NCBI GenBank assembly: GCA_037974665.1
Contig: CM075783.1
Coordinates: 17,454,762 to 17,518,761, forward strand
Direction of reading: 5' to 3'
Length of the DNA stretch: 64,000 nt
Source of the DNA: Ehretia macrophylla
Taxonomy: Eukaryota > Streptophyta > Magnoliopsida > Boraginales > Ehretiaceae
Shown here: positions 1 to 53,566 of the stretch, piece by piece
Position numbering within the stretch: position 1 is the stretch's first letter
How the letters are laid out: every line of letters begins with the position of its first letter
Translations under genes and position numbers: made by a program
Notes under the pieces: model-generated
What the model was told of the DNA's origin: nothing
The model's input: only the letters and a program-made list of their open reading frames with translations
Databases searched by the model: none

Positions 1-1278
1 GATGGGAAAATCTGGAGATAACAAGTGGGAAGTGCAATTCTGAAATAAATACTTAACTATTCTTTATATCTTAATTTTCTTTCCTTTTAACTTTTCTTCT
101 TCTTTTTTTTTTTTCTTTTCTCTTTGATTTTTCCTTTCTCCTTCTTCGTCCCACTTAGAGGTGACATCTGAGGAGGGCCAATATAGGCCTAGTTCAGCCC
201 AACATACGAAAATTCGAGTCCAACTCAACTCGGTTGATTGTGGGCTCGACTCGTCCCAGTCCATTTGAGCCCAAACCCAGTTCAGCCCAACCCAACTCAA
301 AGCACGACTCAACTCGGAACCCAACCTAACTCGAGCCCAGTACAGGCCCAGCTCAAGCCCAAATAAGGTCCAACTCAAGATCAAATAAGACCAATCTTGA
401 GCCCAACTCGGGCCCAGTACAAATTAAGCACAATTTGAGCTCACTTATTAAAATAAATTAAAATTCTATATTTTATGCATGCAATGCAAGTCGTAGTAAC
501 TATTTTTTTTAAAAAACAAACTAGTAAGTCGTAGTAATTATATTTTTTGACAAACTAATAAGAAAAAGTAGCAAATGTATTTTTTAAGTTAATATTAAAT
601 GACTTGTTATCAAACTTTTTTTTAGGGTACAATTTTTTTTTTTTACAATTTTTATAATTGTGCATATTTTCTATAAATACTTAGTGATAATGCTTTAGTC
701 ACTTAGAGTCTGTTTGGCCTAACTTTAAGACACTTAAAAATACTTTTTAGGAGTTTAAAAGCTCAAACTCACATGTTTGGCCTATTTTTAAAGCACTTTT
801 AAGTAAAAGCCAAATCCCAAAAAAGCAAAAATATAGAAGCTCAAAATCGGAGCTTCTTAGAAAAGGCTTCTGCAAAGCTCTTTTACAAAATGCGGAAAGT
901 TTTTTTTTTATTCTAAAAAATACCCCTTCATATTTTTTTAAAATCCAACAATACCCTTTAAAGTTTTTCATACGTTCATTACCCTAATCTGTCACTCAAG
1001 TCCTCTGTTGTCGGAATCGTACAATTCGATACGATTCAACGAAGAATCAATACGAATCGAATGAGAGAATCGTTAATCAATGTGAATCGTATGTGAATCG
1101 TACCGAATCATACGATTCACTAAATCGTTCCCGATTCAATCGTTTGCGATTCAGACCACACTCACAAACTACACCATATATGATGAAGTTGATGTGATTT
1201 TAGCGTCTATCGGCTCCAGGTGAACTGCTTCAGATTTAAACAAAAAAAAAAGATTGAAATAAGATCAAACTCAATGAA

Positions 1279-1572
1279 ATGAAGCTATATTTGTATGTTA
1301 CTATTTGTTATGTTTTTTTTTTTTTGTAATTTTACCTTGGATAGCAATATTCATGTCAGTCGACACATTGACTGTATCACAGTCTATTCTTTCTAATGAG
1401 ACCTTAATATCAGTAAACAAGGTGTTCCAGCTAGGGTTCTTCAGTCCTGGCAATTCCAAAAAGCTCTATTTGGGCATATGGTTCAATATCAACCCAAATC
1501 AAATCGTGTGGATCGCGAACAGACGAACTCCACTCAATAATATTTCTGGTGTTGTTAGAATTGGAAATGATG
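1279..1572 (+). pseudogene. G-type lectin S-receptor-like kinase, 5' fragment
   Basis: The reading frame from about 1305 gives a hydrophobic leader and then DTLTVSQSILSNETLISV, FQLGFFSPGNSKKLYLGIWF and QIVWIANRRTPLNNISG. This is the start of the B-lectin domain of S-domain receptor-like kinases, which are plasma-membrane receptors with an extracellular lectin region. An ATG at 1279 begins a leader-like peptide in another frame. The frame would have to change across the T-run at 1312-1325 to reach the lectin frame, so the copy is probably frameshifted there. Homology stops after RIGNDG near 1572, where antisense vicilin sequence begins. Only about 75 lectin-domain residues are present, and the PAN, transmembrane and kinase parts are absent. 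Confidence 0.8.
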
Positions 1573-2070
1573 GTGCACCAGATGATGAAGATGATGGCAA
1601 AATAATAGACTCACGCTGAGCATTGATTATATTCCTAAGCCTTTCCTCACTGACTCCATATGCAGCTGCCATTTCAAGTCCCCACATGGTTTCCAGGAGT
1701 GAGCTTGCCCTTACTAAGAACTGTGGCCGGTTCTTGTGCACCAAGGTTGTGAAACCGAAGAACTCAAAGGAGCCAGATGTTGATGCAATTTGGCACAATG
1801 GGAAGTAGCGTGGCACCCAAAAGACAATGCCTTGGTGAACTTTCGCCCTCATCGCCAGTGTTCCGTTAGGATATACTATCTGGATGGTACCAGTTCCTCT
1901 CAACACAATACCGTACTCTATTGCTGTTGGATTGATATGTGGTGCCATCATTGATCCCTACATTGAACAAGCAATGCAATGATGTTTTAATACTTGTTTA
2001 CACATAAATGATGATGACAGATTCTGAATTGCATTACAAATTATGAAATTTAAGCAGATGAAAGATGTTT
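1565..2070 (-). pseudogene. Vicilin-like cupin fragment (captured, antisense)
   Basis: Read on the minus strand from about 1957 the peptide is GSMMAPHINPTAIEYGIVL, GTGTIQIVYPNGTLAMRA, VFWVPRYFPLCQIAST, FFGFTTLVHKNRPQFLV, then AAYGVSEERLRNIINAQRE. This matches the second cupin barrel of vicilin-like seed proteins. On the minus strand the coding part is preceded by TTGCTTGTTCAATGTAG, a good 3' splice site, and 1958-2070 reads as intron. The fragment was therefore copied from genomic DNA, not from mRNA. It lies antisense inside the S-domain exon. About 130 codons are open, so it is not heavily decayed. It lacks the first cupin and any promoter that I can recognise. Confidence 0.8.
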
Positions 2071-2211
2071 ACTCTTCTGGACAAAACAGAAAGGATCGTC
2101 TGGTCTTCCAGCATCCAGATTAATATGTCATCAAAGCGTAGCACTGTCGCGCAACTTTTAGACTCTGGAAATCTTGTTTTGAGAGACGGCAAAATTGTTG
2201 CAAGATAGTGA
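2071..2211 (+). pseudogene. S-domain lectin fragment, continuation
   Basis: The frame starting at 2074 reads LLDKTERIVWSSSIQI, STVAQLLDSGNLVLRDGK. This is the segment that follows RIGNDG in S-domain receptor-like kinases. The vicilin piece thus sits exactly between two adjoining parts of one lectin exon. A stop follows soon after the lectin segment, and no further receptor sequence is seen before the subterminal hAT repeats. Confidence 0.75.
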
Positions 2212-3479
2212 TTATTAGAAAAGTAAAAAAAACATATATTAATATTCATTTAAAAGAAGAATTTCAACTAAAAACTATTAATAGAAATATAATATATCAA
2301 ATTAATCTAGTTTTAAATTTGTAACCAAATCGATACGATTCACGATTCGATATGATTCACGAATTAAAAAAATGACATTTCGATTCACGATACAGTTCAC
2401 GATTCGACAACTATGCTTAAGTCGTTGTCTCTCATATTTTAACATTTTTGTCTTCCAAAGAAGAAGAACATACTAGTAAAAAAGATCAAATTATCATCCT
2501 TCTCCCTTTGAGGTACGCCCCACATTGCTTCTTTTAGTACTTGAAAATTGTATTATATTGTGTTGTATTTGAAAATCTCTTGAATTAGTTTTGTAGACTT
2601 TTGTGTGTGTATATATATATATATATATATACTATTGTTATTCAGATTATTACTTTCTTTTCGTTTTATGTGTGTGTGTGTGTCAATTATTCAGATTATG
2701 ATGTATGGTAAAGTTAACTATTGAATTCGTTCTTTGTATGTTTAGTGTCAGTGTTTCTCAATAAGCAACATGGATGGGACCTGTTTGTTTTAGAGAGCAC
2801 TTCACTAATGTAGGAAAGGAGGATAAAAATCCATGTACTATGATCTGCAACTATTAGAATGAAGGTCTTCTGCTTTTTAATTTCTCCAACGCTCAAATTT
2901 ATGTGGTTAAAGGATGTTCAATTGTAAGCAATAATTGCAAGTATCATACAAATTATGCGTCCAGCTAATCGTCGAAATACTAAAGATCATACAGTTTACA
3001 AGTAGCATGCAAAAAAATTTATTCTATCCTGTTACCTTGTTATATAGAGGTGGAAATTTATTTGTATAAACAAAAGGAATGATGATTTCCTAATTGCAAA
3101 ATAAAAACTTTTGTTTTTTATCTCAAATATGTAGGATCCAAAACTCTTTTAATATTATTTTTCTATTTGGTGTTAGGTGTCTTTTTCTATGGTGAAGCCA
3201 TTTTTTTCTTTGCAATTAGTGAAACAGTTTAATAGATTCAACTTTGTCCTTTTCGATATTTTAGAACCCACAACACTTTTATAGTAACAGGCCAAACAAG
3301 TTCACAGACAGTAAATAATACTTTTGACATGATAAGACCAAACAATCAATAACTTTTATTCAACAGCACTTTAACGAAAACTCTAGGCTGAAGCATGTAG
3401 AAATGGCTTAGTTGTGGAACGAAGAAATCGAACTATTGTAGAAATGACTTGATGCATGTTGAAAGGTATTGACCTACCT

Positions 3480-6756: not shown

Positions 6757-7459
6757 GCCTTAAAGAACTCATATGATATAGCTATTTTCCTTATATGAAA
6801 TATCAAATATGCTTCTTGGATATTTGATGGTTATTCTTTATTATCTTTCTCGTATCAACTTCCTAATAACATTAATATTGTTCTTAAATCTTTTCATCAT
6901 CAATGAATACTTTTATGTCGTGTATATGCTATGGATAATCCTTCTCATTGCATTTGTCAGAACTTTTGTGCTTATATTGATAACAAATAGTTCAATTGTA
7001 TTGTAAAATATTTCATAACATTCAAGTGCAAAATTGAGCAATTTTTATTATTTGGCCAAGACATAAACAAGTTGCATTCCTCTTTCATTCTCCACACTTG
7101 CTTGGTGCTCATTTGTGATCTTCAATTTTATTTCATTTTCGGAATAGTTTCTTCCATTTTCGACAATTATGAGCTCATAAAAAAAAAGAGAAAAATCTAA
7201 AAAAAAAATACATATGCTAGTTCTTTGGAGAACTCGTTCATTTAAAAAGGTAACTTATTACTAACAAGAATTAGTCCTTTGAAATACACACTTGTTAAAA
7301 AAACATTTATAGTATAACTACCCTTTAGATTTCTTAACTTCATCCTTCCAACATGGATATTGGCGGTTCTCTTGCAAATGCAACACTTTTGTTTATGTAA
7401 CTCAAATCAAATAAAAGGCAAATCTATCAAATTTGATCAACCAGTAACGAGTAATCCTA
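6757..7459. other. AT-rich stretch, no gene recognised
   Basis: A short hydrophobic frame at 6809-7006 is explained by AT-rich composition. Nothing matches a family I know. The right part may be decayed interior of the neighbouring gypsy remnant, but no motif supports that. Confidence 0.35.
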
Positions 7460-8341: not shown

Positions 8342-8600
8342 TGTTGTTGGATTAGAAAAAGATGCAAAGAGAAGAGATGAACAAAAGAGAATTAAAGTAC
8401 ATCTTGATTGTATTTGATGTTTTTGTTGTGACATGTGTTCTGTTTACAAATTAAGAGGGTGTTTATATATATATATAGGCTAACTTGAAGTTACTTACCT
8501 TAGTGCTTATAAGTTTACACACATGAGAGATACTAGTGATTCTAACACTAGCACCTAATTACATTATAATCATTAAGGATATATGCTATATTCTAATACA
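8342..8600 (-). repeat. LTR of the gypsy remnant
   Basis: A 259-bp TG...CA unit directly adjoining the primer-binding site. It contains an AT-rich TATA-like run at 8466-8480 and ends at the DC1 coding sequence. CTTGA (8601-8605) would be the target-site copy, but its partner was not found. Confidence 0.7.
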
Positions 8601-9290
8601 CTTGAGATGGACAAAGTATCTACAAGAACCATAATAGTAAACCCAATTCTTTTTGTATAGTCTTTTACAACAAACATCACAATTTTTTTTCCCGTCACGT
8701 CGGTATTCTTCTGGATAACAATAAGCTAAGAAGAGAGGGTGAGGATGGTCCTTGTACACCAAGGTGCTTGGAAGTGATCCACAAGTCTTGTGGATCCAGA
8801 ATGAGCATTTAGTGCAACAATACGACTCATCTTCCTCTTTAATGTCGCAAGCATCACACTTAAATAAAGCACTTTTTTGCTGGAGTCTTAGGGGGTGCAC
8901 ATGGCCGGTGTGTTTGTAAGTACCGAAAGGGCTAGTTTGTTGCAATATGGTCCATGGAGCACATAAAACACCTGCATCAAACTCACACATGGAACAGTGA
9001 TAGGTGAAACCTTTCCATGCTTTTAGACAAATATTGCATATACACCCTGATGACAAATAAGGCGACTCGTCAAAGAGTTGAAGTGGGTGTTCTGGATGCA
9101 TTGGATGCTTAATCTCTAATGGTAATTCTGCACAGGATTTATGGAGAAAGACTTTACATTCGCTGCAACAAAAGGTTAAACCCAAGACTGGTTGTTGGCA
9201 ACCGTAACAAACATCATTGACGCTATGATCTTCTTGGAATTCCTTGAGGGCAAGCGGATGCTTCTCATGGCTAAAATGATTGATCTCCAT
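8586..9290 (-). CDS. DC1-domain protein, N-terminal part, cut by an LTR
   Basis: An open frame of 234 residues starts at an ATG at 9290. It holds four Cys/His-rich DC1 repeats: CYGCQQPVLGLTFCCSEC with FLHKSC (about residues 28-53), ICNICLKAWKGFTYHC (about 83-98), CDACDIKEEDESYCCTKC with WIHKTC (about 142-170), and CDVCCKRLYKKNWVYY with FVHLKC (about 205-231). The repeats bind zinc; family members are often 500-700 residues long and their roles are mostly unknown. From 8600 down the frame enters the LTR, and only IRI and a stop are added. The C-terminal repeats expected of a full protein are missing here but resemble those at 4098-4691. One zinc ligand of repeat four looks replaced (YYYGSC where YYC is usual). 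The frame has no other stop, so a short protein could be made, but a pseudogene is more likely. Confidence 0.75.
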   Translation of the reverse strand: MEINHFSHEKHPLALKEFQEDHSVNDVCYGCQQPVLGLTFCCSECKVFLHKSCAELPLEIKHPMHPEHPLQLFDESPYLSSGCICNICLKAWKGFTYHCSMCEFDAGVLCAPWTILQQTSPFGTYKHTGHVHPLRLQQKSALFKCDACDIKEEDESYCCTKCSFWIHKTCGSLPSTLVYKDHPHPLFLAYCYPEEYRRDGKKNCDVCCKRLYKKNWVYYYGSCRYFVHLKCIRI

Positions 9291-9687: not shown

Positions 9688-11780
9688 GATGGGAAAATCT
9701 GGAGATAACAAGTGGGAAGTGCAATTCTGAAATAAATACCTAACTATTCTTTATATCTTAATTTTCTTTCCTTTTAACTTTTCTTGTTCTTTTTTTTTTC
9801 TTTTTCATTTTATTTTCTTTTCGATTTTTCCTTTCTCCTTCTTCCTTCCACTTAGAGGTGGCATCTGGGTTGAACCGATACATGCCCAACTCAGTCCAAC
9901 ACACGAAAATTCGAGTCCAACTCAACTCGGTTGATTGTAGGCTCGACTCGTCCTAACCCACCATCTTTATGTGGGCCGAGTTAGGTCACATAATTTTTGA
10001 CCTAACCAATTTGAACCCAGACCCACCTCAGCCAGCCTAGCTCGGAGCCCAACCTAACTTGAGCCCAGTACAGGCCAGCTCAAGCCCAAATAAGACCCAG
10101 CTCAAGCTTAGATAAGACCAATCTTGAGCCCAACTCAGGCCCAGCACAAATTAAGTACAATTTGAGCTCACTTATTAAAATAAATTAAAATTTTATACTT
10201 TATGCATGCAATGCAAGTCGCAGTAATTATATTTTTTGACAAACTAATAAGAAAAAGTAGCAAATGTATTTTTTAAGTTAATATTAAATGACTTGTTATC
10301 AATCTTTTTTTATAATATTGCAAGATTGCAACTTGCAACTTTAAGTCCCTTCACACAATTTTTTAAAAAAGATTTTATGTACATTTTTTTTTTTACAATT
10401 TTTATAATTGTGCATATAATTGTTTTTATAAATACTTAGTGACAGTGCTTTAGTCATTTAGAGTATGTTTGGCTAAACTTTTAGACCTTTAAAAGTACTT
10501 TTTAGGAGTTTAGAAGCTCAAACTCACATGTTTGACTCATTTTTTAAAGCACTTTTAGGTAAAAGCCAAAATCCAAAAAAGTAAAAATATAGAAGCTCAA
10601 AATCGGAGCTTTTTAGAATAGGCTTCTACGAAGTTCTTTTTACAAAATGCGGGAAGGTTTTTTTTTCTTTTTTTTTTTTCTCAAAAATACCATTTCATTT
10701 TTTTTTTTAAATCTAACATTACCCTTTAAAGTTTTTCATACGTTCATTACCCTAATCTGTCACTCAAGTCGTTGTCTCTCATATTTTAACATTTTTGTCT
10801 TCCAAAGAAGAAGAACATACTAGTAAAGAAGATTAAATTTTCATCTTCTCTCTGTAAGGTACGCCCCACATCGCTTCTTTTAGTACTTAAAAATTGTATT
10901 ATTTTGTGTTGTATTTGAAAATCCCTTGAATTATTTTTATAGACTTTTGTATATATATATATATATATATATATACATACTATTGTTATTCAGATTATCA
11001 CTTTCTTTTCCTTTTATGTGTGTGTGTGTGTCAATTATTCAGATTATGACGTATCGTAAAGTTAACTATTGAATTCGTTCTTTGTATGTTTAGTGTCAGT
11101 GTTTCTCAATAAGCAACATGGATGGGACCTGTTTGTTTTAGAGAGCACTTCACTAATGTAGGAAAGGAGGATAAAAATCCATGTACATATGATCTGAAAC
11201 TACTAGAATGAAGGTCTTGTGCTACGACTGCTCTTTAATTTCTCAAGCACTCAAAGTTATGTGGTTAAAGGATGTTCAACTGTAATTAGCAATAATTGCA
11301 AGTATCATACAAATTATGCGTCCAGCTAATCGTCGAAATACTAAAGATCATACAGTTTACAAGTAGCATGCAAAAATTTTCTTCTATCCTGTTACCTTGT
11401 TATATAGGGGTGGAAATTTATTTGTATAAAGAAAAGGAATGATGATTTCCTAATTGCAATATATATATATATATATATATTTTTTAATCTAAAATATGTA
11501 GGATCCAAAACTCTCTTAATATTATTTTTCTATTTGGTGTTAGGTGTCTTTTTCTACGTGAAGCCATTTTTTTCTTTGCAATTAGTGAAACAGTTTAATA
11601 GATTCGACTTTGTCCTTTTGGTTAATTTTAGAACCCATGACTCTTTTATAGTAACATACTAAATAGGTTCACAGACAGTAAATAATACTTTTGACATGAT
11701 AAGGCTAAACAGTTAACGACTTTTGTTCAACAACACTTTAACAAAAACTCTACTGTTAAAAGCTCTACTAGTCAAAAGCT
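9688..11780. repeat. Duplicated block, copy B
   Basis: Same order and orientation as block A (1-3385) but without the 1.4-kb hAT insertion. It preserves the empty target site at 10763-10770. The match begins right after the DC1 upstream region, which suggests that block A may also follow a DC1 gene lying outside the window. Confidence 0.85.
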
Positions 11781-16227: not shown

Positions 16228-18193
16228 ATGGAGGAGGACCCAAAAATTCTGACTAAAGGACCCATGGTTGGTCTCGTTCACCTTGACTGTGAAGGTAGCA
16301 AAGATTTTAGAGGAGGTAAGAAGGCCAAAACCATCATCTTTCCAATGCAACAGGTACCTTCGTCTACACCTATGGAGGACAACATCAACTCCCATAGTGG
16401 CGAAGGAACATCCTCACAGCCAACGCAACAGGTACCTTCACCTACTCATATGGAGAATAGCATCAACTCTCATGGCGGCGAAAGACCTTCCGCTAGCCGC
16501 TGAACTAGAAAGGTATTTTTGGTAAGAAATCTGATTATATGGCATCTGAGGATGGTTTGGTGGATGATGTCCCTGACTTTGATGATATTGGTTCGGATTG
16601 TGAAGGTGAATGCTCTGACGATGATGAAGGAAAAGATGAAGTAGTACCCCACCTTTTTCTGTCACAGGAGGAAAAAAAGGAGATGCGCAATCCATGACTA
16701 AACGCTCTTATCATCAAACTGATAGGGAAAACGGTAAGTTTTCATTTTTTAGCCTCTCGCCTCAGTAAACTGTGGTCTATTCAAGGGAGGTTCAGCTTGG
16801 TCGACATGGGATTTAGGTTATTTTTTGTCAGATTCTCATCTATCTCAGACTATGAACACATTCTTATTGGCGGTCCGTGGATGCTTATGGACCATTATTT
16901 GACAATACGTCAATGGGAACCTTATTTTCACCCAGAAATTGCAAACACCACCACCTCAATGTCAATTTAGGTTCGCTTTTCGGGAGTTCCGATGGAGCTC
17001 TATAAGGTAAACATTCTAACCAAAATGGGAAATTTAATTGGAAAAACTTTAAAAGTTGATAAATTGACAGGTGATCGCTCGAGAGGGAGATTTGCTAGAG
17101 TTGCGCTTTAGGTTGACCTTGCTAAACCACTGTTGTCGAGGATTCATATTAAGGATGACTACTATCAACGAATTGAATACGAAGGGATCCATTTTATTTG
17201 TTTTAATTGTGGATTATATGGTCATAAGAAAGATCACTGCCCAAAAACAAATCCTCAACAAGATAGTACAAGTAGAGATAAAGGGAAAACTGTAGAAAAC
17301 TCTCAAGGAAAAATGCAGCGATTTACCGAGACCCCAGTTAATTAGGATCCAATGATTGACTTTGGAGAATGGATGATGGTTCAATGCAAGACTACGAGAA
17401 GAATGGGACAAGGTGGTCAGAAGAATTCCGAAATAGGGAAGGCTAACTCATCTGATCAAAACCAAGAAAACAAAGCTCCAAAGAAGCCAGTCAACAACTT
17501 TTCCTTAACAAACGCAGCTTCAGGGTCAAGATTTAATATCTTTAACAAAAGTCAGGATATGGATGGTAGAGAAAATCAGGAAGATTCGGGCAGAAATGGA
17601 AGTTTTCAGTTTTTAGTCGGGAATGAGGAAAAAAGTAAATCAGACAAATCGTTTGTTAACAAAAGTAGAGAAAGCAGAAGACATCAAAAGAACAAAGCTA
17701 CAACCAATAAGGTATATGTTACTAATGCTAACTGTGTGAATGATTGTGAGGTTGTCACTGGTCCTAGTGCCGCATGTCATAACAATAAGGCAAAAGAACA
17801 AAATAAAACTATAGCGGCTGAAAATAGCAATAGTAAATCTGATGATGAACGTAAACATTTGGTTGTGAATGATCTTTCATTTGAGGACCGAAAATTATTT
17901 GGAGTGACTCATGGTAATAGTAGAATTGTTGATGGCAAGGGATAGAACTTTTCTATTATTGTTAAACCAATGCATCAGGATCATCCATATTCACTTGAAG
18001 ATCAGGATACTGATGTTCATTCTCCTCAATTACAAGGAAGATAACGGGATAATCTCTTATCTCAGTTGGATTGTCCTTTGGAGGAGGCCATTGGTTCTGG
18101 TCGAGAAAGGGGCAAGGAAATGAAACCGAGTATTCTTGAGGTTGATTTGCATCCTATTGGTGGTTCCAACCACCCTTACCAAGATGGTTGTTA
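16228..18193 (+). pseudogene. LINE ORF1 (DUF4283 and CCHC zinc knuckle)
   Basis: The ATG at 16228 begins MEEDPKILTKGPMVGLVHLD. An acidic segment around 16540-16640 (DDVPDFDDIGSDCEGECSDD) follows in another frame. DUF4283, the RNA-binding part of plant L1 ORF1, spans about 16690-17130: LIIKLIGKTVSFHFLASRLS, VDMGFRLFFVRFSSISDYEH, GGPWMLMDHYLTIRQWEPYF. The knuckle CFNCGLYGHKKDHC is at about 17195-17240. A polar tail continues to about 18193. The frame changes between the first part and DUF4283, and in-frame stops occur at a Trp-like site before DUF4283 (TGA, about 16696), inside DUF4283, at 17343-17345 and at 17943-17945. ORF1 proteins coat the element RNA; this one is broken. Confidence 0.85.
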
Positions 18194-18241
18194 ATGTCGC
18201 ACAACTTTGTCAGTAATCCTTTCTGGTTGGGATGTCTTTCT

Positions 18242-21200
18242 ATGGGTCTGAAGATTTTGGTTTGGAATTGTCGTGGAGCTACGCGAGAGTCTTTTCACCA
18301 AGTTCTGATTGATTTGGTGTGTCAGCATAAACCTTGGATCATGATTACTCTGGAACCGAGAATAAGTGGAGAAATAGCTAATAAAGTGATCAAGTCTCTG
18401 TGTATGTCGTGCTCTTATAGAGTTGAAGCTAATGGTTTTTTCGGAGGTATTTGGATCTTATGGAATAATGACTTTGTTAATTTGGAGTTGGTTTCTGCAA
18501 GGAATCAAGTGATTAATGTTCTTGTCTCGATGAATGGCATTCATAAATGGCTCATCTCGACAGTGTATGCTAGTCCATATGAAGCTCTACGTACTAACCT
18601 GTGGGATGCCCTTAGAGAAGCATCTTCTTCGCTTCACATTCCTTGGATAGTAACTGGTGATTTCAATCAAGTTGCTCACCCAGATGACAAACAGGGTGGC
18701 GTTGGAGGTTTTTCTAGAAAGATGAAGCAATTTGATAAATGGCAGAATGATTGCAAACTCTTGGACTTGGGTTTTGTCGGGCCTCGTTTTACTTGGTCCG
18801 ATTCTTCGGACTCGGGTTAAAGGATCATGGAGCGCTTGGATCGGGGTTATGTTAGCACTGAGTGGAACTTCTTATTTCTGAATACTTGTGTTCATCATAT
18901 CCCTCGCATTTGCTCAGATCATCTTCCCATTTTGGTGGACGTTTGTGGTTTGAATCAAGGGAGTTACTCCCCCGTCCCTTTCGTTTTGAACTTGCTTGGT
19001 ATACCCATGCTAATTTCTTTGATTTTGTAGGAAACAACTAGAAGGCTAATGCTGGTAACATTAAAGAAGCTTTGGATGACATCTCATTTAAACTTCAAGC
19101 TTGAAACAAGACAACTTTCGGAAATATTCATGCTAACAAAAGAAAACTTATTGCTCGGATTAAAGGGATTCAAAGAAGTTTACAGATGAGATATAACTCT
19201 TCGTTGCTTAGATTGGAAAAAACCTTGAGAGAAGAGTATGAGGATATCTTGGCACAAGAAGAACTATTTTGGTTTCAAAAGTCTAGAAAAAAGTGGATCT
19301 TTTCGGGTGATAGGAATACAAAATTCTATCACCTTTCTACCATTATTAGGAGGAGGAAAAATGCTATTGTCAAACTCAAAGACGACGATGGGAATTGGGT
19401 TCAGGAGGCTAACAAGTTGAGAGATATGACGTTTAGTTACTTGAAATCTTTGTACACAGCTACTAACCAGGTTCCCCTCTCTTTCTCTAGTGCTTGTTTT
19501 AATGATATTCATCACTTGGATTTTATTGCTCTTGGTAACCCGATTGAGGAGGATAAAATTCGGGGTGCTCTCTTCCAAATGGATGCTTCTAAAGCTCTGG
19601 GTCCGGATGGCCTTTCTGCGGGGTTTTTTCAGAAGTGTTGGCCTACAACTAAAGACCTCCTCTGCAATATGGTAAAAGAAGTATTTTCTTCTAGAATTTT
19701 GCCTTATGGTGTGAACCACACTCTAATCCACCTTATTCCTAAGATTAAGAACCTGAAATCTATCAAGCAATTTTGGCCTATCAGTCTTATCAATGTTGTA
19801 GTGAAGTTGATTTCCAAAGTTGTGGTGAATAGACTTCGTCCTCTCCTCCAAGACTGGATCTCTCCTTGTTAGAGTAGTTTTATACTTGGGCACTTCACAA
19901 GTGACATTATTATCCTTGCCCAGGAAGTGATCCATGCCATGAAAAAGAAACAAGGAAAAACAGGTATGATGGCTATCAAACTTGATCTTGAAAAGGCCTA
20001 TGATAAGCTCAATTAGGCTTTCATTAAAGACACTCTTCAGCAGCTCCACCTCCTGGATAATTGGGTCAACCTCATCATGTCGTCTTTCAAAACGGATTTG
20101 GTTTGTCTTTTATGGAACGGTACCTTCTCGTCGACACGAGGAATTCGTCAAGGGGATCCTCTTTTCCCTTATATTTTTATTCTTTGCTTTGAAAGACTTT
20201 CACAGATTATTACTCGGGATGTCAATGACAAGAATTGGAAAGCAATTCGGATTTGTCATGCGGGTACCCCTATCTCCCATCTTTTCTTTGCTGATGATCT
20301 TCTTTTGTTTGCAAAGGCGTCGCCCAACCAAATGGAGAACATTTTGAACATTCTTGAGAGCTTTTGCAAGGAGTCTGGACAAACCATAAATGCAGCAAAG
20401 TCGTCTATTTTTTTTCTCCCGAAATATTGATAAAAATCTTGTTAATTTGATGTGCAGATCCTACGGATTCCAGGCCTCGGATGACTTGAGAACTTATTTG
20501 GGCGTCTCTCTGCTTCACAAGCGGGTTTGCCAAGGTACCTACAAGTATATCCTGACCAAGATCCAGACTAAAGTTGCGGGGTGGAAGCAGAAAGTCTTGT
20601 CCTTCACTAGTCGTGTTACCCTTTCAAAAGCTGCTCTTGCCGCGCTGCCAACCTATTCTATGCAAGTGATGGCTCTCCCTGTTCAGACTTGTAAAGAGAT
20701 TGATAAAATCCAACGCAATTTTATTTGGGGATCAACGGAGGTTCAACGTCATATTCATTGGTTGGCCTGGGAGTCTATCTATTGTCCGAAGTCTGAAGGA
20801 GGTTTGGCTCTTTGTATGGCTAGAAGTACTAATGAAGCCATGCTTGCCAAGCTTGGATGAAAAATTCTTAATGAGCCGGAGCTGTTTTGGGTCCAAATTC
20901 TGAAGGAGAAATATTTCTCTAATAATTTGTTGTCCTATGAAGGCAAGAACTCTGAGTCCAAGGTTTGCAAAGATATCATCAAAGGGAGAGACACTCTGAA
21001 GCAGGGGATTAAATGGATTCTTTGTAATGGTTGTACAACAAGATTCTGGCTAGACCTTTGGGTGGGAGAAGATATTCTGTTCAACATGGCACTTTATCAC
21101 ATTCCTGAAGGGATGATACATTTTACAGTTGATCGCTTTGTGCATGGGAATGGCGATTGGAATTGGGCTATCTTCTAGCACTTTCTCCCATACCCTCTTC

Positions 21201-22330
21201 TTTTGCAGATTTCTAATTTGAAATGTTATCCTGAGGATTCTCGTGATGATTTTATCAGTTGGAAGCATGATGCTAACAGCTCTTTTTTTGTGAGCACGAC
21301 CATTGTGTATAACTAAAACACCCACTTGGACTCGGATATTAAATGGGAGGAGCTTTGAAAACTGCCTTGTCCCCAAAGAATCGTTATTTTTTTTTGTGGC
21401 AGACAGCCCACCAGCGAATAGCTTCTAGATTTGAGCTTAGCAAGAGAGGTATACTATTTGATGCAAGGTGTGTTTGTTGTGGTTCTTCGTGTGAAGATAC
21501 AGTGTATGCCCTTCGATCGTGCCCTTATGCCCGTCATATTTGGGAACGCCTCCTCCCAAACTCCCTTCGTAATGGGTTATTCACTATGGATTGGAATGCA
21601 TGGATCAATATAAATATTTGTTCTAGAGATGTTTGTTTTGGTGTTAGGTAGAAATGCATCTTCGTGGCTGCCAGTTAGGAGATTTGGAGGTTGCGTAATA
21701 ATTACATCTTCAAAGGGGAAATAAGGAAACCTCTTGGTGTGATTGTTAGCCAGATTATTAAGAATGCGCATAAGTATGTAGAAGCTTGGAGGTCTCACGA
21801 CAGCCACCAGCTCCACACTATGAGGGATATCATGATTGGATGGGAAAAGCCAAACATGGGTTATAAGTTAAACATTTATGGTTGTTCGAAGGGCAATCCT
21901 GGAGTTGCATGGGCGGGTGGTCTCTTCCGCGATGTAGATGGAAGATGGATGTCGGGTTTTGGCTTCAACCTGGGCATTGCAAGCAACAATAGAGCAGAGT
22001 TTTTGGCGTTAGAGAAAGGTCTTCGCAGGGCGGAACAACTTGGGCTTTATCATCTTTCCATTGAGACTGACTCCCGTTTTATCTGTAACTTGCTTAAAAA
22101 GGGACCTGACTACAATAGCCCATTCAAGATTACGGTGGAGAATTGTATGGAGATTTTGGATAGGCACGATGGTTATCGAGTTTTCCATACTTTTCATGAA
22201 GCTAATGGTTGAACTGACTAGATTGCTAACTATAGTCTCCATCAACCTCTTGGATCATTTTTATTGGATCGACCTCCAGATATTCTCCAGACTCTGATTG
22301 AGAAGGATAGGACGAGTTTCAAATCCCGTT
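18242..22330 (+). pseudogene. LINE ORF2 (endonuclease, reverse transcriptase, RNase H)
   Basis: The ATG at 18242 starts MGLKILVWNCRGATRES. The apurinic-type endonuclease runs to about 18960 (VTGDFNQVAHPDD, CSDHLPILVDVCG). Reverse transcriptase lies at about 19550-20430, with ALGPDGLSAGFF, MAIKLDLEKAYDKLN, GIRQGDPLFPYIF and the catalytic FADDLLLFA near 20288. A connector region follows (20390-21180), then zf-RVT at about 21380-21560 (CVCCGSSCEDTVYALRSC) and RNase H at about 21860-22300 (SKGNPGVAWAGGLFRD, NNRAEFLAL, IETDSR). Stops include 18818-18820, 19870-19872 and 20014-20016, and the frame changes near 18970, after 20400 and around 21350. In RNase H the first catalytic Asp appears replaced (NIYGCSKGNPG where NTDG is usual). 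It copied LINE RNA by target-primed reverse transcription; this copy is dead. Confidence 0.9.
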
Positions 22331-48748: not shown

Positions 48749-51700
48749 ATGGCCGGTCGACCGAGAACCAGAGGTAGGCCTGAGATGGTTGATGAGACTC
48801 CGAGTAACGTGGCACCGGGCCGTGACGGGGGTGATGACCGATTAGGAGCAGCTATGGAGCGGATTGCAGAGTTAGTGGCTAGTCAGGCACAGTTATTAGC
48901 AGGGCAGGCTGCCCAGAATCAGGCTATGCAGGCTCAGCTTCTGAATATTCAGGGTGGTAACCACGGGCGTGGTACCCTGAAGGAGTTTTTAGGATATCAC
49001 CCACCGAGATTTCAGGGGGAGCCGGATGATAGGAAGGCGGAGGCATGGATTAGCAAGTTGGAGAAGATTTATGATCCACTTGACTATACTGATGAGCAGA
49101 AAGTCTCTTTTGCCGTGTATTTGTTAGATGACGAGGCAGAGGAGTGGTGGCGCACGGTAAGGACTAGCTGGGCGGCACAGGGTATTCCTTATGTTTGGGG
49201 TACCTTTCTGATGGCTTTCCGAGCAAAGTATGTCCCGAGGATTTGCAGGGAACGGAGAGAGGCCGAGTTTCTAGCCTTGGTCCAGGGAGATGCTACAGTG
49301 GCTCAATATGAGGCCACATTTACTCGATTGTCCCGGTATGCACCGGAGTATGTGGCAGACGAGGAGCGGAGGACTCGCAGGTTTATGTTGGGGTTGCGGC
49401 CCGAGATTCAGGATGTGATGGCTCTGAATCGATATGATATTTTCACTGAGGCTTTTGATGCAGCTTCTAGGTTAGAGAAGAGGAAAGGGGATCAGATTGT
49501 CTCCAGTCAGCCTAGTAAGAGGCCGTATCAGCCACAGGGCCAGCAGGTTATATATAGGCCTCCAGTACAGCAGGTTGTCTACAGGCCACCAGCCCAGCAG
49601 GGTTCTTATAGGCCACAGGGTCAGCAGAGTTACTATCGGCCTCAGTTTCAGCAGAGGCCATATCAGGTTCAGACTCAGTATAGGCCAGCCCAGTCTCAGG
49701 GTCAGTATAGGCCTAGTGTGGTGAGACCTCAGCAGCAGGCTGTATCAGCTGCTTCATCAGCTTCTGGTTATTCTAGGGGCAGTGTTAGTGCCACATCATC
49801 GCAGTGTAATTACTGCAAGCGCCCAGGGCATGTAGAGTCCGACTGCAGGGTAAAGGCAGGGACATGTTTGGGTTGTGGTAGCAGCGAGCATAGGGCGAAG
49901 GATTGCCCTAAATATGCGAGGACTGAGGGTCGAGCAGCGACTCAGGGTTACCAGGGTAGGCCTACGGGCAGTGTACCACAGCAGCAACGGGTTCAGGCTC
50001 GGGCTTATGCAGTTGACTTAGAGGAGATGCCTGAGGAGACTGCAGTTGTGGAAGGTAACTTCCTTATACTTGATCAACTTGTTAAAGTGTTGATTGATTC
50101 TGGTGCTACGCATTCTTTCATTACTCCTGCTTGTGTGCAACGTGTTAAATTGCAACCTGAAAGATTGCCTTATGTGGTTGAAATTAGTACCTTTTTGACT
50201 GATAAGTATGTTACTGGCTTAGTATGTAAGGATTGTATAATACATGTTAAGGGGCATAATTTTCCTTCGGACCTTATTTTATTTCCTATCCGGGGGTATG
50301 ATGTTATCTTGGGTATGGATTGGCTTTCTAAGTATGATGCCCAGTTGAACTGTAGAACCAAGGTAGTACTGTTTCGTTTGCCAGATCAGCCAGTAGTTGA
50401 GGTAGCGGGTAACCGGGGTGCTAAGACGAGTTTTGTTATCTCAGCAACTAAAGCCGTTAAGTTGGTGAGTAAGGGGTGTTCGGGTTATCTAGCTTATTTG
50501 ATCAACAAGCCATCTGATAAGCTACAGCTAGAGGAAGTCCCTATTATCCGGGAATATCCTAATGTATTTCCCGAGGAGTTGCCAGGGTTGCCGCCTGAGA
50601 GGGATATAGAGTTTGTGATTAATCTTGTTCCCGGTACTCAACCTATTTCTAAATCGGCGTACCGGATGGCACCAGCTGAGTTGAAGGAGTTGAAGACTCA
50701 GTTACAGGAGTTATTGAAGAAAGGATTCATTCAACAGAGTTCTTCACCTTGGGAAGCTCCAGTCTTATTTGTGAAGAAGAAGGATGGTACTTTGAGGTTA
50801 TGTATAGATTACCGTGGTTTGAATCAGGTGACAATCAAGAATAAATATCCTTTGCCACTGATTGATGAGTTGTTTGATCAACTTCAGGGAGCCAAAGTCT
50901 ACTCTAAGTTTGATTTGAGGCAGGGGCAGCTTCGGATTCGTACGGAGGATGTTCCGAAGTCTGCCTTCAGAACTCGGTACGGGCATTATGAGTTTGTTGT
51001 TATGCCCTTTGGTTTGACTAATGCACCGGCAGCATTCATGGATCTTATGCATCGAGTTTTTCAGCCGTACTTGGACCAGTTCGTGGTGATTTTTATTGAT
51101 GATATCTTGGTCTATTCTAAATCTGAATCGGAGCACGAGCAACATCTACGGCTTGTATTAGAGAAGTTGCAGGAGCATCAGTTGTTTGCCAAGTTCAGCA
51201 AATGTGAATTTTGGCTGCAACGGATTTCTTTTCTTGGCCATGTTATTACGCAGAGCGGTATTTCTGTAGATCCCACTAAGATTGAATCGGTGATGTCTTG
51301 GAAGCGGCCAGAGAGTGTTACTGATGTCCGTAGTTTTCTTGGCTTGGCGGGTTATTACCGTAGGTTTGTCAAGGACTTCTCAAAGATTGCGGGGCCACTA
51401 TCTAAGTTGACTCAGAAACGGACTATCTTTAATTGGGACGAGAAGTGTGAGAGTGGATTTCAGGAGTTGAAAAAGAGGTTGACTACCGCTCCAGTACTTG
51501 CTCTACCAGAGGGGACCGATAATATGGTCATTTACAGTGATGCGTCCAAGGAGGGCTTGGGATGTGTTCTTATGCAGGATGGCCGAGTTATTGCCTATGC
51601 TTCTCGAAAGTTGAAGCCTTATGAGGTGAATTATCCTACTCATGATCTTGAGTTGGCAGCAGTTGTCTTCGCACTGAAAAAGTGGCGTCATTATCTGTGG

Positions 51701-53566
51701 GGCAGTAAGTTCGAGATTTTCACTGATCATAAGAGTCTAAAGTATTTATTCTCACAGAAAGAGTTGAATATGCGCCAGCGGAGGTGGATGGAGCTTGTTG
51801 GAGGGTATAATGGTTCTTTCAATTATCTGCCTGGCAAGGCAAATGTTGTAGCATATGCTCTTAGTAGGAAGGCAAGTATTTCTTGTTTAGCTGTCAAGAA
51901 GTGGGAAGTTCTGGAGGAATTCACTTATTGGAGACCAGAGTTGACTCAGGTTGGCGTGATGTGTTCACATCTCCGTATTCAGCCTTTATTGTTGTCTCAG
52001 ATCAGGGAAGCTCAGCAGCTTGATGTTAACCTTCAGAAGATCAAGGATCAGATTTCGGATGATCAGTCTGACTTTAAAGTGCATGAGGATGGTATTCTTC
52101 GGTTTCGGAACAGGGTTTGTGTTCCCGATGAACCGGGCTTGAGACGAGGTATTCTGGAGGAAGCTCATAATTCTAAATATACTATTCATCCCGGTGGAAC
52201 CAAGATGTATCGGGATTTGAAACAGCATTACTGGTGGAACAACATGAAGAGGGAGGTTGCTCAGTTTGTGTCTAGATGTTTGACTTGTCAGAGGGTGAAA
52301 GCCGAGCATCAACGACCTGCAGGGTTGCTTCAGCCGTTGGCTATACCAGAGTGGAAATGGGAGCATATTACGATGGACTTCGTCACTGGTTTGCCTAGAT
52401 CACCGAGGGGTAATGATGCAGTTTGGGTTGTCGTGGATCGTTTGACGAAGACAGCTCATTTTATTGCAATGAGGATGGGAGATGAGGTTACAAAGTTGAC
52501 GGATCTTTATCTGGATCAGATTGTTAGACTTCACGGGATTCCATCTAGTATTGTCTCTGATCGAGATCCTCGATTTACTTCTCGTTTGTGGGAGAAACTT
52601 CAGGAGACCTTAGGTACTCAGTTGAACTTCAGTACCGCGTATCATCCACAGACCGACGGTCAGTCTGAGCGGACTATTCAGATTGTGGAAGATATGCTTA
52701 GGGCTTGTGTTCTGGACTTCGGGAAGAACTGGGAGAAACATCTACCACTTACCGAGTTTGCCTATAACAATAGTTATCAAACTACTATTGGGATGGCACA
52801 TTTTGCAGCTTTTTACGGTCATAAGTGCCGTTCACCTTTATATTGGGACGAGGTAGGAGAGATGAAGACTATTGATCCGACTATCATGCCAGAATTTCTT
52901 GAGAAGATCGAGAATGTTCAGTTGATCAGTCAGAGAATGCTTACGGCGCAGAGTAGATTCAAGAGTTATGCTGATAAGCGTCGTCGAGACTTGGAGTTTG
53001 CAGTTGGAGATCGGGTTTTCTTGAGATTGTCTCCTCGAAAGGGGTTTGTTCGTTATGGTAAAGGTGGTAAGCTGAGTCCGAGATTTGTTGGACCGTTTGA
53101 GATTACTGGCAGGGTTGGTAAGTTGGCATATCGGTTGGCTTTACCGGAGAACTTCTCTAATGTCCACGATGTGTTTCACGTGTCTAATTTGCGGAAATAC
53201 AATCCGGATCCTTCTCATATTCTTGAGCCAGAGCCGTTACAGCTTCGAGAGAATTTGACTTATGACGAGCGTCCGATTCGTATTCTAGATCAGATGGACC
53301 GAGAGTTGAGGTCGAAGAGGATTCCGATGGTTAAGGTGTTGTGGAAGCATCACGGCATTGAGGAAGCTACGTGGGAGAGACGAGATCAGATGCAGCAGCA
53401 ATACCCAGATCTTTTCTGTACATCATGTAAGAATTTCGAGGGCGAAATTTCTATAAGGGGGGGAGAATGTGAAACCCCACTTTCTTGCTTATCTCGTTTT
53501 ACGTGCTATACCTCGTTTTTCATGCATATGACCAGTTTATGTGTTATAGGACCTAGAAAGTTATAA
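48749..53566 (+). CDS. Tekay/Del gag-pol polyprotein
   Basis: A single frame of about 1605 residues from the ATG at 48749 ([13 protein letters not shown]); the frame is open a little farther upstream, but this Met fits the family start. Parts in order: gag (about residues 70-260), a Gln/Pro/Tyr-rich linker, two CCHC knuckles (about 350-385), aspartic protease ([10 protein letters not shown], about 445), reverse transcriptase (about 620-800), RNase H (about 925-1040), integrase zinc-binding and core (about 1140-1330), and a chromodomain-like C-terminal end (about 1505-1560). In this lineage the chromodomain is thought to guide integration into heterochromatin. The frame runs through the polypurine tract into the 3' LTR before its stop. 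It is the only long open frame in the window. Confidence 0.93.
53453..53467 (+). other. Tekay polypurine tract
   Basis: AAGGGGGGGAGAA-type purine run directly before the 3' LTR; it primes plus-strand synthesis in LTR elements. Confidence 0.85.

Follow-up and report, generated by a model that had tools for sequence, protein, structure and literature searches.

Three nested host gene fragments in a small hAT-type transposable element of Ehretia macrophylla

The stretch of Ehretia macrophylla DNA analysed here, referred to as the window, comprises 64,000 nucleotides (C20:17454762-17518761) of a 1.58-Gb assembly in 20 contigs, which was the genome searched. Its positions 1003-2415 are occupied by a 1,413-bp, non-autonomous hAT-type element that contains fragments of three host genes, captured one inside the other in the order subtilase, S-domain receptor kinase and antisense cupin. 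An initial annotation, made from the letters of the window, had described the element together with its S-domain and cupin cargo. Both fragments were recovered, but a third, older subtilase fragment at 1174-1213 had been missed, and it was left unsaid that the cupin splits the S-domain cargo in two. The features of the locus are as follows.

995-1002, no strand: 5' target site duplication CTCAAGTC, same as the empty site at 10763-10770
1003-1013, plus strand: 5' terminal inverted repeat CTCTGTTGTCG
1003-1172, plus strand: 5' terminal and subterminal region with GATTC/GAATC arrays, common to sister elements with other cargo
1174-1213, plus strand: presumed subtilase remnant, the oldest capture seen, which continues in five of five printed C-type elements and in L097
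1214-1573, plus strand: start of the S-domain receptor-kinase exon, second capture, part 1, matching C6 genes L029-L033
1499-1951, minus strand: chimeric open frame of 150 amino acids, running from the cupin exon into antisense S-domain sequence
1574-2073, minus strand: vicilin-like cupin, third capture, donor C19:1944396 (L028), 93% identity
1958-2072, minus strand: captured cupin intron, GT...AG intact in the alignment with the donor
2074-2190, plus strand: S-domain, second capture, part 2, B_lectin PF01453
2191-2415, plus strand: 3' terminal and subterminal region from the AAAATTG junction, common to sister elements
2405-2415, plus strand: 3' terminal inverted repeat CGACAACTATG
2416-2423, no strand: 3' target site duplication CTTAAGTC, one mismatch to CTCAAGTC
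10763-10770, no strand: empty site in the paralogous block

The element starts with CTCTGTTGTCG and ends with CGACAACTATG, and is flanked by CTCAAGTC and CTTAAGTC. Compared as CTCTGTTGTCG and CATAGTTGTCG, the terminal repeats agree at 8 of 11 positions in the form found in the window and at 9 of 11 in the CAC form, and GATTC/GAATC subterminal arrays were seen at both the 5' and the 3' end. Further downstream, the window contains a paralogous block from which the element is absent. When the window's first 14 kb were compared with themselves by BLAST, two collinear matches were obtained (1-1002 with 9688-10770 and 2416-3385 with 10763-11752), whose overlap is exactly 8 bp long, 10763-10770, and represents the exact empty site. 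The termini, subterminal arrays, 8-bp duplication and empty site of the initial annotation are confirmed. The 3' end has another match in the window, at 7159-7171, which we attribute to chance because no subterminal array accompanies it. Divergence within the duplicated block (1-3385 and 9688-11752) is uneven, ranging from about 2 to 11% per 200 bp in the well-aligned part, and the block adjoins a Cys/His-rich open frame at 8586-9290, which we take to be DC1-like.

The short, imperfect terminal inverted repeats and repeated subterminal motifs are of the hAT type. Target duplications of hAT elements follow the consensus nTnnnnAn. Of 22 target duplications of the family, 19 have T at position 2 and 16 have A at position 7, a preference that fits this consensus. 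These loci had been picked for clean duplications, with the window's kept despite its one mismatch and other imperfect ones left out, and two of them share identical 8 bp and the same contig, so that full independence is not proven. The 8-bp duplications recur in other copies, and the hAT-type features given in the initial annotation stand when set against the whole genome.

The S-domain cargo corresponds to the beginning of the main exon in receptor-kinase-type genes that are clustered on C6 at 54.97-55.51 Mb, with the 1214-1573 part covering upstream sequence, the ATG region and the first part of B_lectin. In the element, B_lectin (PF01453) was detected with an E value of 1.5e-7, 0.1 bit under the Pfam cut-off, while the donor frame gave 1e-34 for B_lectin along with S-locus and PAN domains. 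The majority sequence of the copies that carry both cargoes lies 3.0% from the closest S-domain donors. The cupin cargo (Cupin_1, PF00190, E value 2.2e-17) consists of most of the last exon and the complete last intron in antisense orientation. Since this intron is retained with its GT and AG, the fragment was copied from DNA and not from mRNA. Its match to the C19 donor (93%) exceeds that to a paralogue on C17 (82%), and the majority sequence differs from the donor at eight coding bases, four of which are replacements. The earlier label "vicilin-like" holds for an upstream exon of the C19 donor gene, an exon whose best PDB match is a vicilin; the captured fragment alone, however, matches prunin, an 11S globulin, slightly better. 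The separate donors on C6 and C19 agree with the proposed capture of two unrelated host genes. The oldest cargo is a 40-bp remnant with the 3' end ATTGG (ATCGG in the window), a motif common to the S-domain donor. Its gene form, L097 on C7, was fetched as 475 bp and is without the element's 5' end. The Pfam match to subtilase is below the cut-off (E value 0.034), and we take the fragment to be a subtilase mainly because of its subtilase-type motif and a reading of L097. Two further candidate donors, L095 and L096, were rejected, both being further elements of the family. The host gene pieces in this non-autonomous element thus match genes elsewhere, on C6, C19 and C7, and no transposase domain was detected in those of its frames that were searched.

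The order of the captures can be read from surviving intermediates, which include elements with subtilase but without S-domain and elements with S-domain but without cupin. The latter, S-only type is represented by L025-L027. The stretch AAACTTGAT(A/C) is kept in all three S-only copies and in the five donor genes that were fetched from eight C6 places, while in 17 of 17 copies with both cargoes the cupin is found in its place. Because donors and S-only copies keep this stretch, the state without cupin is ancestral, and about 10 bp gave way to the cupin. Likewise, subtilase sequence runs on past the S-domain start point in L097 and in all five C-type elements that were printed (the sixth member of the cluster, the recombinant L067, was left out), which places the subtilase before the S-domain.

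A genome search with the full element returned 1,487 candidates, of which 40 were scored. At least 16 other places carry both cargoes, 14 of them near-complete and two cut at query position 1177; given the number scored, the 17 copies, the window's included, are a lower bound. Among the 17, target duplications are identical over 8 bp in ten, have one mismatch in two (the window copy being one of these) and two mismatches in two, whereas one copy is without its 5' end and two are without their 3' end. An 8-bp duplication with zero to two mismatches therefore accompanies 14 of 14 two-ended copies with both cargoes, and 8-bp duplications were also found in three of three S-only copies. The initial annotation had named two observations that would speak against it, namely S-domain and cupin sequences adjacent outside any element and a failure of the 8-bp repeats in other copies. 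Neither was seen: among the 40 candidates scored the two sequences are adjacent only within elements, and the repeats recur as described. Flanking DNA is shared in only three sets (L011/L018, L014/L021 and L022/L023/L024), which marks these as segmental duplicates and leaves 13 independent insertions. The element was consequently mobile after capture, as several insertions, 13 of them independent, have identical cargo junctions. Single copies lie 1.3-4.7% from the majority sequence, the window copy being the most diverged. L014 and L021, at 97.89 and 97.91 Mb on C1, share the same target site and have flanks that are about 96-97% identical, while their interiors are 6.2% apart; gene conversion with some other copy may account for this.

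Other cargo is present in sister elements that have the same ends, which makes this a Pack-hAT lineage. In a search for which the 5' and 3' ends were joined into one query, no match such as an empty progenitor would give ran across the joint among 40 scored of 1,657 candidates. Thirty sister loci were fetched, some of which had been fetched earlier under other numbers, and 27 had a readable 5' end. Their cargo, assigned with Pfam on one member per kind, is EF-hand in seven, a Ty3-type integrase end in seven, subtilase in six (one of them recombinant with the Ty3 type), PF14476 ("petal formation-expressed") in six and a singleton in one. The C-type cargo has a second component that matches L098-L100. 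Seven more loci, chosen among the matches listed for an exact 3' end, carry BRCT (three), other gene-like sequence (two), PF14476 (one) and a mixture of Ty3 and subtilase (one); the BRCT assignment comes from Pfam on one member, and in four of the seven the 5' terminus lies outside or only partly inside the stretch. Mixed cargo of Ty3-type and subtilase-type pieces was observed in L067 and in positions 1-1350 of L124, which suggests that sister elements recombined or that templates were switched between them. L123 (C6:55404541-55406161) has the same 3' end and other cargo and lies inside the S-domain kinase cluster, with its 5' end outside the stretch; its position bears on a possible preference of captures for nearby genes. 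A glucan-synthase-like label considered for L123 and L129 found no support from Pfam and NCBIfam on the L129 frame or from PDB with a short L123 piece.

The 3'-end pattern was found at 860 places with up to two mismatches, compared to none for the reversed control, and a second 3'-end pattern at 487. As the pattern differs by two bases from the gene-carrying lineage, neither figure counts that lineage alone, and the 860 places cover both lineages. For the same reason the sample of 20 exact 3'-end matches, taken among the matches listed, is biased. About 14 of these 20 are a common short sister element, roughly 550-640 bp long, whose ends are similar and whose interior differs (ten were aligned). 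This short element (L103-L122) and the gene-carrying lineage have in common about 160 bp of the 5' end and 175-200 bp of the 3' end. It was considered as the missing progenitor and rejected, being a sister family with a different interior.

It appears probable that the window element is a copy of a Pack-hAT whose nested captures arose through templated break repair and which was afterwards multiplied by an outside hAT transposase. The repair mechanism and the source of the transposase are what we infer here. A break within the element would have been repaired by copying unlinked gene DNA, through templated gap filling or through template switching, processes that belong to interrupted synthesis-dependent or microhomology-mediated repair. 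Each capture would have been placed inside the previous one, subtilase being followed by S-domain and antisense cupin, and the completed element would then have been mobilised and multiplied by a hAT transposase from elsewhere. At the 5' junction of the S-domain, ATTGG (5 bp) is common to acceptor, donor and product. At its 3' junction AAAA is shared (4 bp with donor L029; 3 bp, AAA, with donor L030), and at the cupin 5' junction TGG (3 bp). In a simple model, the chance of at least five, four and three shared bases is about 0.008, 0.024 and 0.07, respectively.

The principal alternative is the fusion of neighbours, in which two copies flank host DNA, the transposase uses the outer ends and the inner ends are lost. 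This mechanism was proposed for Pack-CACTA elements and extended to other Pack-TYPE families including hATs, and a maize Pack-PIF family provides a stepwise two-gene series (PMC8903248). Within the present genome, L123, which shares the 3' end and lies about 16 kb from an S-domain donor place on C6, would suit such a fusion, and a composite ancestor could explain why interior stretches are common to several cargo types. However, both later captures lie strictly within earlier cargo, and the cupin interrupts the S-domain with only about 10 bp lost. All 16 other copies with both cargoes align to the window element as one long piece and hence have no extra inner ends. In the donor stretches that were fetched (5.5 kb for L028, 3.5 kb each for L029-L033), matches were confined to the cargo and the element ends found none. 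Repair-type capture is favoured because of the junction microhomology, the lack of a target duplication around the S-domain or cupin fragment and the lack of extra inner ends, and fusion of neighbours is considered an unlikely origin. A different route would be that the cupin or the S-domain piece arrived as the insertion of another transposon or as a processed copy. The Ty3-type pieces that sister elements carry as cargo indicate that the family does pick up transposon DNA. However, neither host fragment is bordered by a target duplication, acceptor bases were lost, the cupin intron is kept and the fragments match unlinked genes, so that hardly any weight is given to this explanation.

The cargo might also be functional and under selection. 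It could encode a chimeric cupin/antisense-lectin protein or a secreted lectin in truncated form, or provide antisense or small interfering RNA directed at the S-domain and storage-protein genes. A cupin frame of at least 150 amino acids is open in 13 of the 17 copies, one of the three S-only copies keeps a lectin frame of 144 amino acids with a start codon, and the opposed orientation of the fragments could yield double-stranded RNA. In the window copy, on the other hand, the S-domain frame starts late and comprises 88 amino acids. In the cupin exon part, 68 replacements were observed versus 73.3 expected (P = 0.11) and five stops versus 5.4 expected (P = 0.55), with P = 0.08 for both combined; unique changes were pooled among copies without tree correction. 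As this is no significant departure from the neutral expectation, a function of the chimeric cupin frame is not supported. Selection on the cargo thus seems very improbable, and judged by its substitutions the cargo looks like neutral passenger DNA.

Several observations weigh against templated repair followed by mobilisation with an outside transposase. The cupin 3' junction shares only 0-1 bp, which amounts to little or no microhomology, the cupin 5' junction requires a later 3-bp loss and one substitution, and an extra 14-bp loss lies alongside the S-domain 3' junction. All junctions were read by eye off the printed sequence. The S-domain tree places the S-only copies between donors and copies with both cargoes with a weak support of 0.77. 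The long cupin frame that stays open in most copies and the imperfection of the terminal repeats (8/11) also belong here, as does the distance of about 16 kb between L123 and one S-domain donor place on C6, which makes closeness of element and donor possible. Although hAT genes are abundant in the genome (877 candidates, 150 of which were scored), no transposase gene with matching ends was found in 1 kb downstream of 20 of the 150. All that these stretches gave were weak matches, at most 28 bp long, to AT-rich sequence in the inner part of the 3' region, whereas its end had no match. The places of the 3'-end pattern, among the matches listed, were compared with the list of hAT genes by eye.

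A further difficulty is that four sister cargo types have their 5' start in common and their 3' point nearly so, a pattern that random breaks leave unexplained. A tentative extension of the templated repair reading, which we hold to be possible rather than probable, is a serial gene trap. In this case, a recurrent internal break site, which in the sister elements would lie between AAACTGC and TATTAGC, would have been repaired repeatedly with unlinked gene DNA, so that one set of ends was reloaded with at least four cargoes before the nested captures took place. If true, this would constitute direct sequence evidence that a plant hAT captures genes by gap filling at a preferred internal site and not by the fusion of neighbours.

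Elsewhere in the window, positions 48749-53566 contain an uninterrupted open frame of 1,605 amino acids that resembles a Ty3-type polyprotein by eye, and a run of open frames at 17352-22212 has by eye the appearance of a LINE-type non-LTR (long terminal repeat) retroelement.

Whether plant cut-and-paste elements capture genes by the fusion of neighbours or by repair-type copying is still argued, and a 2026 review allows for an undiscovered mechanism for the capture of unlinked genes (PMC13317346). As ancestral, intermediate and final forms exist together with the donors in one genome, the junctions of this family can be read with known states before and after capture, which makes it valuable as a test case. 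It also illustrates that single hAT copies can stack unrelated gene fragments; chimeric genes or antisense transcripts might arise in this way, although the present cargo looks neutral. For plant hATs, gene capture has already been published (PMC2528002, PMC3260210, PMC8903248), though the abstract of one study calls it rare in hATs (PMC3260210). The novelty claimed in the initial annotation was therefore somewhat overstated, whereas the case itself, with three nested captures and sisters carrying other cargo, was understated. Among the open-licence papers listed in the literature searches, none was found on a hAT family that combines three nested captures with intermediates still present.

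The closest parallels are the Pack-hATs of maize and rice, which are likewise non-autonomous, generate 8-bp duplications, carry pieces of host genes and have relatives with and without the insert (Gisby and Catoni, 2022, PMC8903248). In contrast to these, two unlinked genes are here nested in an older capture with intermediates present, and while the fusion of neighbours is preferred in that study, the junctions read here speak rather for copying of the repair type. Maize Ds2 and Ds-l4 elements similarly combine conserved ends with a variable filler, sometimes gene DNA with introns, and gene fragments were reported in two Ds2 and nine Ds-l4 elements; an ordered series of nested captures was not found in the available parts of that report (Du et al., 2011, PMC3260210). 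Grapevine Hatvine-6 also has shared ends and a variable interior that often matches genic or non-genic host DNA (Benjak et al., 2008, PMC2528002), but its members have transposase coding sequence in common, and no such sequence was seen among the elements of the present analysis. With regard to the proposed mechanism, the family resembles the metazoan Pack-TIRs, for which junction microhomology, gap filling and template switching as well as the multiplication of multicopy cases by transposition (the FoSTeST model) were described (Tan et al., 2021, PMC8277862). Microhomology was present at one or more breakpoints in 67.6% of those cases, with a median of 2 bp. Unlike the present family, Pack-TIRs occur in animals, and gap filling was invoked mainly for single-copy cases, with a related template-switching model for the multicopy ones. 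The same study considered the application of either model to plant Pack-MULEs worth exploring (Tan et al., 2021, PMC8277862).

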